Origin: Virgibacillus dokdonensis
GTDB lineage: Bacteria; Bacillota; Bacilli; Bacillales; Amphibacillaceae
NCBI RefSeq assembly: GCF_900166595.1
Contig: NZ_LT745763.1
Coordinates: forward strand, 3,533,333 to 3,597,332
DNA: 64,000 nucleotides
Direction: 5' to 3'
Shown here: piece after piece, positions 6,901-22,524 of the stretch
Layout of the letters: every line of letters begins with the position of its first letter
How positions within the stretch are numbered: the first letter of the stretch is position 1
Translations under genes and position numbers: made by a program
The notes under the pieces: generated by a model
Told to the model about the DNA's origin: nothing
What the model saw: the letters and a program-made list of their open reading frames with translations, nothing else
The model's database searches: none

Positions 6901-6987
6901 GGATTTTGCAAATATATCCTGCTGCTGCCACCACTTCTTAACCCGATTTTCCCTTTCAACTACCGTCTCTTCTACATGATGATCCAA
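3907..6987 (-). CDS. ileS: Isoleucyl-tRNA synthetase, IleRS2 (eukaryote-like) type
   Basis: Charges tRNA-Ile. With 1026 residues it is about 100 longer than the housekeeping IleRS1 of B. subtilis. WDTHGLPVE and the rest of the sequence fit the IleRS2 clade, known for low sensitivity to mupirocin. Visible in order: HAGH (residues 53-56, a normal HxGH signature rather than the altered motif of hyper-resistant forms), the editing-domain Thr-rich [11 protein letters not shown] (221-231), CWRC and CPHC zinc-type pairs, KMSKS (588-592) and a long anticodon-binding C-terminus. The start is TTG 6987, behind AGGAGTG. It is controlled by a T-box leader separated from the gene by a group II intron. A second, IleRS1-type gene elsewhere is likely but not visible. 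Confidence 0.95.
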
Positions 6988-7043
6988 CTCAATTCACTCC
7001 TAACTTTTTTATCACTTTTGATTTGTCAAATTAAGCGAGACAA

Positions 7044-8941
7044 ATCGAGTAGAGGGAAAAGTTAAGTAACTTTACGCCCCTCTCACACCACCGTACGTAC
7101 CGTTCGGTATACGGCGGTTCAATAGTTTGAGTGTACGAACTGGTATTGTAGAGCGATGTCTTTATATCCTCTCGATGCCAGTTCTTTATCTGTTAATGAA
7201 CGATGGAGTACATAACTACTGGATATAACCCAGTAGCCCTTTCTTGTATTCGACCATTCATAAGCTTTATGTTTATCGATACCTAAGCGAATTAGATTTT
7301 TCCTTTTTGTGCGTGGGTTTTTCCACTGCTTCCAGAGATATTGTCTAATTCTTCGCTTCAACCATCCATTGAGATTCTTTATAAATCCTTTCATTTCCCC
7401 TATGCCATAGTAGTTTATCCAACCTGTCATAAGTTGTTGGATTTCTTTAAGAATCACTTCGAGATGTCGTCCACGATTGCGTTTGGTGATCCGCTTGAGT
7501 TTCCTTTTTGACGGTCACTTTCGCTTTATTATGCGGACGAATTTTGACACCCTTCTTCGTAGCTAATAAGCAGAAGCCAAGAAACTTACGTTTCAAAGGA
7601 CTTCCAACCGCACTCTTTTCTCGGTTAACAGTTAAACTCAGATCCTTCTCAAGAAAGTTCGTTATATTATCCATTACCCGATATCCTGCTCTCCTGCTTT
7701 TCACATAGATATTACAGTCGTCCGCATAGCGGACGAATCTGTGACCACGCTTTTCTAATCGTTGGTCTAATTCATTCAGATAAATATTACTGAGTAACGG
7801 CGATAAGTTTCCACCTTGCGGCGTTCCTTCTTCCGATTTCTCAAAGATACCGTTTATCATAATTCCACTCAATAAATACTGTCTTACCAAGCGAAGCACG
7901 CGCTTATCATCTATCTGTTTTTCCACGAAATACATCAGTTTGTCATGATTTACCGTATCGAAGTAGGATTTCATATCCAAATCCACCACATATTTGTACC
8001 CTTGTTCGTAGTATGACTTTGCCCGTATGATGGCTTGATGTGCACTACGTTTTGGACGAAACCCAAAACTATTATCGGAGAACTTTGGTTCAAATATTGG
8101 TTGGAGCACTTGGTTAATCGCTTGTTGAAGCATCCGGTCGATGACTGTCGGAATCCCCAGTTTTCTCTTTCCACCGTCTGGTTTCGGGATTTCAACCCGC
8201 AGGACGGGTTGCGGTTTGTATTTTTCTTGATATAACTGGAGTAATAGTTCCTCTTTATGTTCCTTCAAGTATGGAAGTAGTTGGTCGCACGTCATACCGT
8301 CTACACCGGCTGCCCCCTTATTTCTGACGACTTGAAGGTAAGCTTGATTGAGATTGTTCCTTGACAGGATTCTTTCAAACAGATTGGATACACCATTTTG
8401 ATTGTTCTTTTCACCATGTAAGCCACTATGCGCTTCGACATACCCTTCATGTTCCACACTATCTCTCTGCCGATAGCCAGATTCTCCTGTTTTCTGCAGT
8501 TGTCGCACCTTACACACCTCCTAGAGCTTTCAAAACGACTATTGTTCGGTCCTTCATGTTTCGTCAAGTAACATTACTATGACCTCTGCTGACTTCTTGT
8601 GATTCACCAAGACGTCATCGTCTTGGTTGTGCTGGTTTGTTATCATTCAACTCCCACTGCACCCTCACAAGACCTCCCCCGGTAAGAGCGAAAACTTTCC
8701 TCCCATGTAACTGCTAGATTTACTGTATAGGTTTCGGGCAGTATTGGACTTCAGTTTGTTAGGCAACCTTATCCGACCTAATTCAGCCTTCTATCTAGTT
8801 TCTGTTCGTCAGTTCAGGAGTTTGCGTCCGACTTCCTTCAGCCACTACCTCGCGATAGCCACCTTGTCTTTCGCTAACAGTTCCTACTGCCATGCCTGTA
8901 GTGGACTTTCACCACCAAGTTTTCGCCCATGCAGGGCGCAC
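7044..8941 (-). mobile_element. Group II intron, bacterial class C-like, inserted in the ileS leader
   Basis: A retroelement of about 1.9 kb. The 5' end on the minus strand is GTGCGCCC (8941 downward), followed by the typical CTTGGTGGTGAAAGTCCACT segment of domain I. Near the 3' end, domain V spans 7120-7087 (AACCG...CGTACGG pairing) and domain VI follows, ending CTACTCGAT at 7044. A reverse transcriptase frame fills the middle. The 5' exon is the T run of the T-box terminator, matching the habit of class C introns to insert after terminator hairpins. Splicing would rejoin the terminator T run to TTGTCTCGC, 56 bases before ileS. Exact ends are read from motif consensus, so an error of a few bases is possible. 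Confidence 0.88.
7119..8508 (-). pseudogene. ltrA: Group II intron reverse transcriptase/maturase, frameshifted
   Basis: Intron-encoded protein that would assist splicing and copy the intron into DNA. The RT domain is intact: FGFRPKRSAHQAI, VVDLDMKSYFDTVNHDKLM, GTPQGGNLSPLLSNIYLNEL and the catalytic FVRYADD. Just after KAKVTVKK the frame breaks at AAAAAGGAAA (plus 7502-7508): removing one G restores KLKRITKRNRGRHLEVILKE, which runs into the maturase domain X (GWINYYGIGEMKGF) and on to the stop at 7119. As it stands the protein ends at 7447 and lacks domain X. The preferred start is GTG 8508, behind AGGAGGTG. A sequencing error in the A/G run is possible. Confidence 0.88.
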
Positions 8942-8942
8942 C

Positions 8943-9240
8943 AAAAAAGCCCGCCCCTAATTATCATTAGGGACGAGCTTAAACCCGCGTTACCACCCTG
9001 GTTCCAGAGTTATCGATGTAAACCATATTCTCCGGCACTCATCAACGTACATTTCATACGCGCCTCTATGATAACGGTGAGGATTCCGGAAAAGCTTACT
9101 TACAGCATCAGCTTTTCTTCTCGGAGAGGATCTTCAACATAAGTGGAACATTGGCTTACAGCAAGAATGCCAACTCTCTGGAGAACCATCATTACGCTTA
9201 CTCATTCTCGTCAATGAATGTAGTCGTTTGTTTCATCATT
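8943..9240 (-). promoter_or_regulatory. T-box riboswitch of ileS
   Basis: A leader RNA that binds uncharged tRNA-Ile and then reads through its terminator. The T-box core AGGGTGGTAACGCGGG is at 8999-8984. The terminator pairs GTCCCTAATG/ATTAGGGGC and ends in a T run (8978-8943). Stem I carries AGAGAG and GCTGTAAGCC elements and a GAAGATC segment in which ATC (9131-9129) fits an isoleucine specifier codon. The leader ends at the intron boundary, so the switch is now about 1.95 kb from its gene in unspliced RNA. Confidence 0.92.
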
Positions 9241-9246
9241 ACTATA

Positions 9247-9275
9247 AACCTATACGAAAGCCTCATTGCTGTCAA
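9247..9275 (-). promoter_or_regulatory. Likely ileS leader promoter
   Basis: TTGACA (9275-9270) followed after 17 bp by TAGGTT (9252-9247), a perfect -35 and a weak -10. It lies immediately upstream of T-box stem I. Confidence 0.6.
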
Positions 9276-9441
9276 GTTGGATAAAGAATTACAGTAAAAT
9301 TTCTATGCCTGAAGCGAGTTTTGCTTATATGGTATTCCCTATAAATTGTTGGAGGAAGTGAATTTATTTTTAAATTTTCAATTAAAATGGTTGATTTTCT
9401 CCAAGAAATATTATATGTTTCATATATGCAACTTTATTAGT

Positions 9442-9544
9442 TTTAGGTAAATTTTATTCCTTTGGTTATTTTTTTTACCTAAAGGAATAAAGATGGTAGT
9501 ACAGGTAATTCAACATGCTCTCCCGGGGTGGTAGCCGGGAGAGC
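9442..9544. other. Interleaved and nested hairpins before the 21-bp array
   Basis: Two perfect inverted pairs interlock: TTTAGGTAAA (9442-9451) with TTTACCTAAA (9474-9483), and TTTATTCCTTT (9453-9463) with AAAGGAATAAA (9481-9491). The order left1-left2-right1-right2 means that as RNA they are either alternatives or a pseudoknot. A separate GC-rich hairpin, GCTCTCCCGG/CCGGGAGAGC with an 8-nt loop, spans 9517-9544. No gene is seen here and the function is unknown. Confidence 0.5.
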
Positions 9545-9580
9545 GCCCCTTCTTAACGTACACTTTTTTATACTATAGAT

Positions 9581-10240
9581 GAGCGAATTTACGACGAACA
9601 TGAGCGGGTTCCGTGTGAGTAGGAGCGAGGTTACAACGAACGGGAGCGAGTTCTGCGCGGGGATGAGCGGATTTACGACAAACGGGAGCGATTTACAAGC
9701 GAGTAGGAGCGAGGTTACGACGAACATGAGCGATTTACACGCAAGCAAGAGCGAATTTACGACGAACATGAGCGATTTCTGCGCGGGGATGAGCGAATTT
9801 ACGACGAACGGGAGCGGATTTACACGCAAGCAGGAGCGAGGTTACGACGAACGGGAGCGATTTACACGCAAGTAGGAGCGAATTTACGACGAATGAGCGA
9901 TTTCTGCGCGGGGATGAGCGAGGTTACGACGAACATGAGCGAGTTCTGCGCGGGGATGAGCGAAGTTACGACGAACAGAGCGATTTCTGCGCGGGGATGA
10001 GCGAATTTACGACGAACATGAGCGAGTTCTGCGCGGGGATGAGCGAATTTACGACGAACGGGAGCGAGTTCTGCGCAGGATGAGCGAATTTACGACGAAC
10101 GGGAGCGAGTTCTGCGCAGGATGAGCGAGGTTACGACGAAAAGGAGCGATTTACACGCGAGCAGGAGCGAAGTTACGACAAACGGGAGCGATTTACACGC
10201 GAGCAGGAGCGAATTCACAACGAACAGGAGCGTTTTCCAG
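9581..10240. repeat. Tandem array of 31 units, 21-bp period, 42-bp higher-order period
   Basis: Every unit begins GAGCG and is almost always 21 bp (a few are 19, 20 or 22). Odd units are type A, ending in TTACGACGAAC plus two variable bases. Even units are type B in two versions, TTCTGCGCGGGGAT or TTTACACGCRAGYAG. A and B alternate strictly, giving a 42-bp repeat. Composition is far more GC-rich than the flanks. Because 21 is seven codons, several frames stay open on both strands (heptads like MSEFTTN), but none has a ribosome-binding site, so I treat the array as non-coding. It ends about 45 bp before the gene at 10286. Confidence 0.85.
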
Positions 10241-22273: not shown

Positions 22274-22487
22274 TAAAAAAAGACCAGCAAAAACACATGG
22301 TCTCAAAGGTCGCGATTTCCCTAGGACCTCTCTCCTAATATTACATACGCTTACGAGGTTAGCTGTCGGGTTCGGGATGGAGAGCACCCCTTTCTCTATT
22401 ATGAGAATTCACCCCAAGGCCGCAATAAATCATTTCTACGACCAAATTCCTGTGGTTCCCCCGTTCAAAACAAGATTCAGCAAAGGT
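22274..22487 (-). promoter_or_regulatory. c-di-AMP riboswitch (ydaO/yuaA type) with terminator
   Basis: Minus-strand leader of the ktr gene. The conserved aptamer pieces are all present in order: GCTGAATC..GAACGGGGGAACC, TTGGGGTGAAT, then CCGAACCCGACAGCTAACCT, CGTAAGCG and GGAGAGAGG. An intrinsic terminator follows (AGACCA/TGGTCT with a T7 run, 22304-22274). Known members bind c-di-AMP and switch off potassium and osmolyte transporter genes, fitting the downstream gene. Confidence 0.95.
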
Positions 22488-22524
22488 TCATAGTTAATTA
22501 TGAGTAAATCTTTTAATAAGCTAT

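Follow-up and report, generated by a model that had tools for sequence, protein, structure and literature searches.

A class C group II intron behind the T-box terminator of a second isoleucyl-tRNA synthetase gene in Virgibacillus dokdonensis

Class C (IIC) group II introns insert after intrinsic transcription terminators (PMC4424553; PMC8919778), and a DNA hairpin such as that of a terminator is a key determinant of insertion (PMC3898094). Nearly all of these introns splice by hydrolysis in ribozyme reactions and branch only with their own protein, and they read the 5′ splice site through a stem-loop (PMC7161350). Here we describe an intron of this class in a 64,000-nucleotide stretch of the Virgibacillus dokdonensis genome (contig NZ_LT745763.1, positions 3,533,333 to 3,597,332; hereafter the window), where it lies between the terminator of a T-box leader and ileS2, a gene for an isoleucyl-tRNA synthetase (IleRS). 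We consider it likely that a proliferating intron recently inserted behind the T-box terminator and was tolerated there, with the T-box keeping its control over read-through.

The element has much in common with B.h.I1 and Ta.it.I1, class C introns that follow terminators: the RNA domains are the same, the protein has no endonuclease, the landing site is a hairpin with a T run, and a burst has produced multiple copies. O.i.I1 is a further class C intron behind an intrinsic terminator. What sets the present locus apart is that most such terminators are final, whereas this one is conditional and the next gene needs read-through. Introns behind terminators have been inferred to be rarely transcribed (PMC8919778), which need not hold at a conditional terminator. 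A SAM-I aptamer has likewise been found with an intact terminator and a group IIC intron, and was dismissed as a likely false positive, the terminator's role as an exon-recognition hairpin not being weighed in that passage (PMC9481103); the sensor here is instead a tRNA-binding T-box, and 14 T-box cases were found. In Clostridioides difficile, too, a sensor RNA, the c-di-GMP-II riboswitch, stands directly upstream of a self-splicing intron, in what has been called a true allosteric group I ribozyme, and the sole natural allosteric self-splicing system described as known is a group I intron (PMC9481103), whereas the intron here is group II, mobile and recent, and its gating is hypothetical. Type 2 IleRS (IleRS2) confers mupirocin resistance and may be encoded by the sole or by a second IleRS gene; as in the IleRS1/IleRS2 pairs of, for example, Priestia megaterium (PMC10485003), a type 1 and a type 2 gene here share one genome, with the difference that an intron interrupts the ileS2 leader. 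Among the titles and abstract openings of the literature matches listed, we found no description of a T-box combined with a group II intron.

The intron in the ileS2 leader

Read along the minus strand, the locus consists of a T-box leader, a strong terminator, a class C group II intron, 56 bases of leader and ileS2. The features are given below in window coordinates, G001 being the closest sister genome and G004 a more distant species of the same genus.

9275–9249, minus: possible leader promoter, TTGACA (9275–9270) and TATAGG (9254–9249) at 15-nt spacing, weak and recognized by eye
9223–8966, minus: isoleucine T-box leader (Rfam RF00230, 123.3 bits against a cut-off of 93, full model; also in G001 and G004)
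8980–8943, minus: T-box terminator from the terminator scan, a 15-pair stem (8980–8947) and a T run (8948–8943)
8941–7044, minus, sense to ileS2: class C group II intron of 1898 nt (RF02001, RF01998, 11 copies, empty site in G001)
8517–7450, minus: first piece of a broken intron-encoded protein, reverse transcriptase domain (Pfam RVT_1 143 bits, TIGR04416 370 bits)
7457–7122, minus: second piece of that protein in another frame, maturase (X) domain (Pfam GIIM 48 bits)
7043–6988, minus: 3′ exon, the rest of the leader, 56 bases to the start codon, identical in G001
6987–3907, minus: ileS2, type 2 isoleucyl-tRNA synthetase of 1026 amino acids (NCBIfam profiles), TTG start, HAGH motif by eye

The boundaries come from a natural empty site. 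G001 shares the leader, the T-box and the ileS start but lacks the intron, and the T run of its terminator joins the 3′ exon, so that ...GGGCTTTTTTG continues directly into TTGTCTCGC..., which sets the exon junction at 8942^7043. The intron itself begins with GTGCGCCC and ends with CTACTCGAT; the last T of the block common to the intron copies is part of the 3′ exon, and between the six-T run and the intron there is a single base, G8942. An earlier reading made without database searches (the sequence-only reading) had named this very junction, 8942 joined to 7043, and it is exact. That reading had further placed a class C intron in sense orientation between the T-box terminator and ileS, which the Rfam models, the 11 copies and the empty site bear out, and had put 56 bases between the 3′ intron end and the ileS start, which is the length of 7043–6988. 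The comparison with intronless sisters that it proposed is provided by the empty site of G001 and by G004, in which the T-box at the ileS2 leader also stands without an intron. As the site is empty in both genomes, the insertion at ileS2 is young.

The intron RNA is matched by RF02001 (144.9 bits at 8859–8687) and RF01998 (71.5 bits at 8629–8549), which place the catalytic domains D1–D4 of bacterial group II introns in the window copy. The domain 5/6 model RF00029 is not listed at its cut-off of 40 bits for the window copy, nor for copies L001, L004–L007 and L009, and scores about 43 bits in the siblings L002, L003, L008, L010 and L011; the window copy has zero substitutions relative to the consensus of the copies. 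The observation is beyond chance, supported as it is by the identity of multiple copies, by the empty site and by three curated RNA models, and the element is a group IIC intron that is predicted to splice. Its only departure from the consensus is a one-base length change, which splits the maturase frame between the reverse transcriptase and maturase domains in the assembly. In the protein of an intact sibling (L094; TIGR04416 426 bits), RVT_1 and GIIM are the only domains found at E up to 0.001, and there is no endonuclease domain.

The specifier codon of the T-box, read by eye from the alignment, is AUC (Ile) and is unchanged in G001 and G004, and we predict that the leader responds to uncharged tRNA-Ile. 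The antiterminator strand is AGGGTGGTAACGCGGG. In isolated folds of the ileS2 leader the terminator reaches −23.9 kcal/mol versus −8.7 kcal/mol for the antiterminator, and the two structures have GCUCGUCCCU in common. Both hexamers of the candidate promoter (9275–9249) are kept in G001 and G004; the promoter scan did not return this candidate. The terminator scan gave no second terminator-like site on the sense strand over 6950–9700, and the promoter scan no promoter-like site in the 3′ exon. These two results agree with the expectation of the sequence-only reading that T-box-driven ileS messages must carry the intron. A little upstream of the T-box leader a 42-bp unit is repeated in tandem about 15.8 times (window 9578–10237), and the corresponding position in G001 is close to a run of N.

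We find that ileS2 is not the only ileS of this genome. The ileS2 protein scores 1352 bits with the MupA model of NCBIfam, 1312 with MupB and 947 with the general ileS model. The first of these is below the curated cut-off for MupA (NF000257, 1900), and we take the product to be a MupA-like IleRS2, a relative of MupA and not MupA itself. The second ileS, at C15:2.34 Mb, is of type 1 (general ileS model 1045 bits versus 378 and 342 for MupA and MupB) and has its own T-box of 138 bits. When the first 200 residues of ileS2 were searched in 31 genomes, close matches (74–100%) came only from its own genome and from G001 (98% identical), G004, G024, G009 and G011, the best match in the other 25 being about 30–36% identical. 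The claim of the sequence-only reading that the intron had landed before an essential gene therefore fails at this locus, where the gene is a MupA-like second IleRS and not the sole ileS.

Sibling copies and landings elsewhere

The same genome holds 11 full-length copies of the intron, which align over 1898–1899 bases with common end points and 0–8 substitutions each. The 20 matches also take in weaker, diverged pieces and two copies, L012 and L014, that are truncated but keep their 5′ end intact. Relative to the consensus, seven of the 11 have no substitution, one has one, two have eight each, and the ileS2 copy has none besides its length change; with seven identical copies and so few substitutions in the rest, we conclude that the burst was recent. 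The protein frame, 466 codons long, is open in the ten siblings and broken only at ileS2. Nine of the 13 copies with an intact 5′ end are preceded by a computed hairpin and T run (the exceptions are L005, L008, L010 and L011), so that insertion directly after an intrinsic terminator rests on the script at these nine and on the natural empty site for the window. In L014 the copy ends after 167 nt (1501–1667), and the next open frame, on the opposite strand, is transposase-like by eye.

Two of the siblings lie behind other regulatory leaders. Copy L004 stands behind a second T-box (118.5 bits) and ahead of cysE-cysS, an operon that is very probably essential; cysS is single-copy in this genome, only one of nine matches exceeding the cut-off. 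This sibling rescues the spirit of the essential-gene claim. Ahead of copy L007 are an FMN riboswitch (117 bits) and a terminator, and after it comes ribE. By eye the terminator is conserved in six relatives, five of which show the start of ribE beyond it; we infer that this terminator belongs to the riboswitch, its distance from the aptamer being variable. Also at this locus, L007:1233–1300 belongs to a repeat of about 70 nt that is dispersed in G000, G002, G004 and G006, with numerous copies among the matches listed.

None of the relatives examined carries an intron at the ileS2, cysE or ribE site. For ribE, G001 shows a matching empty site, and at cysE it has the T-box with no intron, but the sequence beyond the terminator differs; only fragments of this intron occur in that genome. 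G004 has three full copies, one of which (L072, 1245–3397; 91% identical) follows a T-box of 99 bits; its domain 5 is altered by eye, and no obvious regulated gene was seen directly downstream. Among plasmid records the nearest relatives of the intron are about 77% identical and come from Enterococcus faecium, six of the 434 matching records covering at least 80% of the query. Five E. faecium plasmid records (H1–H5) carry full-length relatives annotated as ltrA.

Landings of this kind extend to other bacteria. A DNA pattern made of the T-box motif, the T run and the intron 5′ end gave 13 hits in a collection of 84,980 species genomes. A T-box is present at 11 of them; seven of these exceed the Rfam cut-off, and the other four score lower (60.2, 63.5, 89.9 and 28.3 bits, the last cut by the locus end). 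At the two remaining hits, L023 in Mesorhizobium and L033 in Robertmurraya, no T-box was detected at E up to 0.5, and both were dropped. A group II model matches nine of the 13 hits; for L026 and L028, which contain less than 120 nt of intron, the 5′ end served as the criterion. G254 and G112, two genomes from the order of this Virgibacillus, are identical over the compared stretch to the pattern-hit records of Lederbergia galactosidilytica and Sporolactobacillus spathodeae. The downstream gene is readable in three of the 11 T-box hits, the locus ending before the intron end in the other eight. It is thrS in Clostridium manihotivorum (L031), valS in Alloiococcus otitis (L027) and cysE-cysS in Syntrophomonas sp. 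UBA4807 (L022), where the minus strand carries, from 5514 down to 2960, a T-box, a IIC remnant of at most about 316 nt with no reverse transcriptase frame, and the operon; this is apparently an independent hit on an operon also hit in the genome of the window. Together with the window, L004 and L072, the 11 pattern hits bring the T-box/IIC intron cases to 14. The landing, which the sequence-only reading had called unusual, is thus rare, as that word implies, and at the same time recurrent, with a T-box at 11 of 13 pattern hits and with thrS, valS and cysE-cysS among the genes behind it. Selfish introns are able to settle in the control regions of aminoacyl-tRNA synthetase operons, including that of a single-copy cysS, and to persist there, and they have done so more than once.

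Possible consequences for ileS2 expression

From the side of the intron the T-box terminator would be an ordinary terminator target. We suggest that uncharged tRNA-Ile at the T-box would still decide on read-through of the terminator, and that the messages that pass would carry a 1.9-kb intron in their leader. The ileS2 copy would have no complete maturase of its own, and efficient branched splicing would need protein supplied in trans by the ten near-identical siblings; failing that, the intron RNA may splice weakly by hydrolysis or be left in place. Splicing had been thought probable for every ileS message in the sequence-only reading. It is unneeded for the protein, as the intron lies in the 5′ leader and ileS2 has its own ribosome site, AGGAG (7001–6997), downstream of the intron and 9 nt before the TTG start. 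With this site ileS2 would be translatable whether the message is spliced or not, and the insertion would be tolerated, helped by the second ileS. Transcription through the intron, continued ileS2 expression and near-neutrality of the insertion are probable in our opinion, and the intron may possibly form a second control layer on ileS2, as the sequence-only reading had also proposed; no selection for such a layer is evident, because the insertion is young.

The intron could instead act as a damper on expression, which is possible, though we rather doubt it. Spliced intron particles made from the eleven copies would bind again to the joined ileS2 exons and reopen them, or the unspliced leader would be unstable, and output would be lowered in either case. 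Spliced introns that reopen joined exons lower host mRNA, as described mainly for Ll.LtrB, which reopens its own ligated exons, and mRNA loss has also been seen with the IIC intron BhI1 (PMC6003770); near-identical copies would, moreover, be expected to have their exon-binding sequences in common. However, the 5′ exon ends in TTTG at ileS2 versus TTAG at the commonest sites (7 of 13), and pairing with the putative exon-binding sequence 1 (EBS1) would probably be weaker. In addition, the break would fall ahead of the coding region, within the 5′ leader.

An alternative that we hold unlikely is that the T-box gates splicing. Here the terminator hairpin would double as the element by which the intron recognizes its 5′ splice site, and an antiterminator held by tRNA would block recognition of the 5′ exon; once the tRNA leaves, the hairpin would form and splicing start, and intron RNA would be freed only from tRNA-less messages. 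As it is a stem-loop that lets IIC introns recognize the 5′ splice site (PMC7161350) and the hairpin shares a strand with the antiterminator, a tRNA-bound leader should not present the hairpin. The stretch GCUCGUCCCU is the shared part at ileS2, the folds of the cysE leader show a like overlap, and refolding would be expected after release of the tRNA, with the terminator more stable than the antiterminator by about 15 (ileS2) and 13 kcal/mol (cysE) in isolated folds, although such folds leave tRNA and protein out of account. On the other hand, the overlap is imposed by the landing site and requires no evolved function, and there is no sign of selection in a young insertion that is missing from G001 and G004. 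The antiterminator may also vanish before the 1.9-kb intron is completed, leaving nothing to gate, so that the relevance of gating depends on an antiterminator lifetime beyond the transcription of 1.9 kb. We think it improbable that leaders with a T-box and a class C intron are natural tRNA-gated group II ribozymes and that riboswitch/IIC pairs couple ligand state to splicing. With one hairpin claimed by terminator, antiterminator and splice-site recognition, the question whether tRNA or a metabolite can gate group II splicing nevertheless becomes testable, and if gating were true, the link between ligand state and splicing would be built into the arrangement and would not be a product of evolution toward that end. 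A separate candidate, pairing of a T-box strand with the intron 5′ end, was predicted in the window copy and rejected as a general feature, with P > 0.5 in three of 14 junctions (L001, L072 and L029); in all 14 the terminator hairpin is, by eye, part of the minimum-energy fold.

Transcription of ileS2 independently of the T-box, from a promoter within or after the intron, appears highly improbable to us: the sense strand has promoter-like matches at 8567–8538 and 7885–7856, but the region has three matches on both strands versus a shuffle mean of 5.8, and with none in the 3′ exon a promoter after the intron finds no support.

How often class C introns land behind T-boxes

A rival reading is that class C introns favor attenuators, or that the intron was kept for the control that it adds. 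We estimated the base rate of T-boxes among terminators in this genome. In a 400-kb sample the terminator script counts 129 terminators at a threshold of −12 kcal/mol, equivalent to about 1486 in the whole genome, and 303 at −9, equivalent to about 3490. The genome has 21 T-boxes, 14 of them over the Rfam cut-off and 13 with motif and terminator by the same script, giving a rate of 0.4–1.4% (13/3490 to 21/1486). In the 397 genomes of the order there are four T-box junctions in three genomes, two of the four in this genome. The class C 5′ ends after TTTT come to 125 on the minus strand, spread over 54 genomes and typed by hand from tabulated output. Plus-strand sites were left out, as overlapping T-run starts inflate their counts and all four T-box junctions are on the minus strand; if plus-strand sites were equally many, the figure would be four of about 250.

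Several observations weigh against an ordinary tolerated insertion, or against parts of that account. Riboregulators precede three of the 13 copies in this genome (two T-boxes and one FMN riboswitch) and one of the three full copies in G004, and the order T-box, intron, aminoacyl-tRNA synthetase gene recurs in unrelated genera. At least two T-box landings among 13 has P 0.001–0.014 over this range of base rates, the window having been chosen for one of them; at least one among the other 12 copies has P 0.04–0.16; and with this genome included, 4/125 has P 0.001–0.10, exceeding expectation at low base rates. The break in the maturase frame, for its part, may possibly be an assembly error among near-identical repeats. 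Outside this genome, two of 119 countable minus-strand sites are behind a T-box versus 0.4–1.7 expected (P 0.07–0.50), with no significant excess, and a general enrichment at T-boxes is thus unsupported there. A preference for attenuators, or an adaptive capture of the intron, is to our mind very improbable, since 4/125 includes the genome from which the window was picked and 2/119 falls short of a significant excess at every base rate tried, the relatives examined lack the intron at all three sites, and the Syntrophomonas copy is a decayed remnant. We accordingly favor recent insertion and tolerance.

With one site taken per genome, two of 30 follow an attenuator, a lysine riboswitch (L145) and a T-box (L166), a 6S RNA site (L162) and a distant L20 leader (L174) not being counted as such. 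In L145 (G123, 1256–1508) the class C intron comes immediately after the lysine riboswitch and a terminator, and in L162 (G119, 1276–1510) it lies a short way after the 6S RNA gene. Further regulatory RNAs are a tandem pair of T-boxes of 136 and 121 bits at G000:C15:3372298–3372887 and, in the window itself, a c-di-AMP riboswitch of 93.4 bits on the minus strand at 22333–22492.
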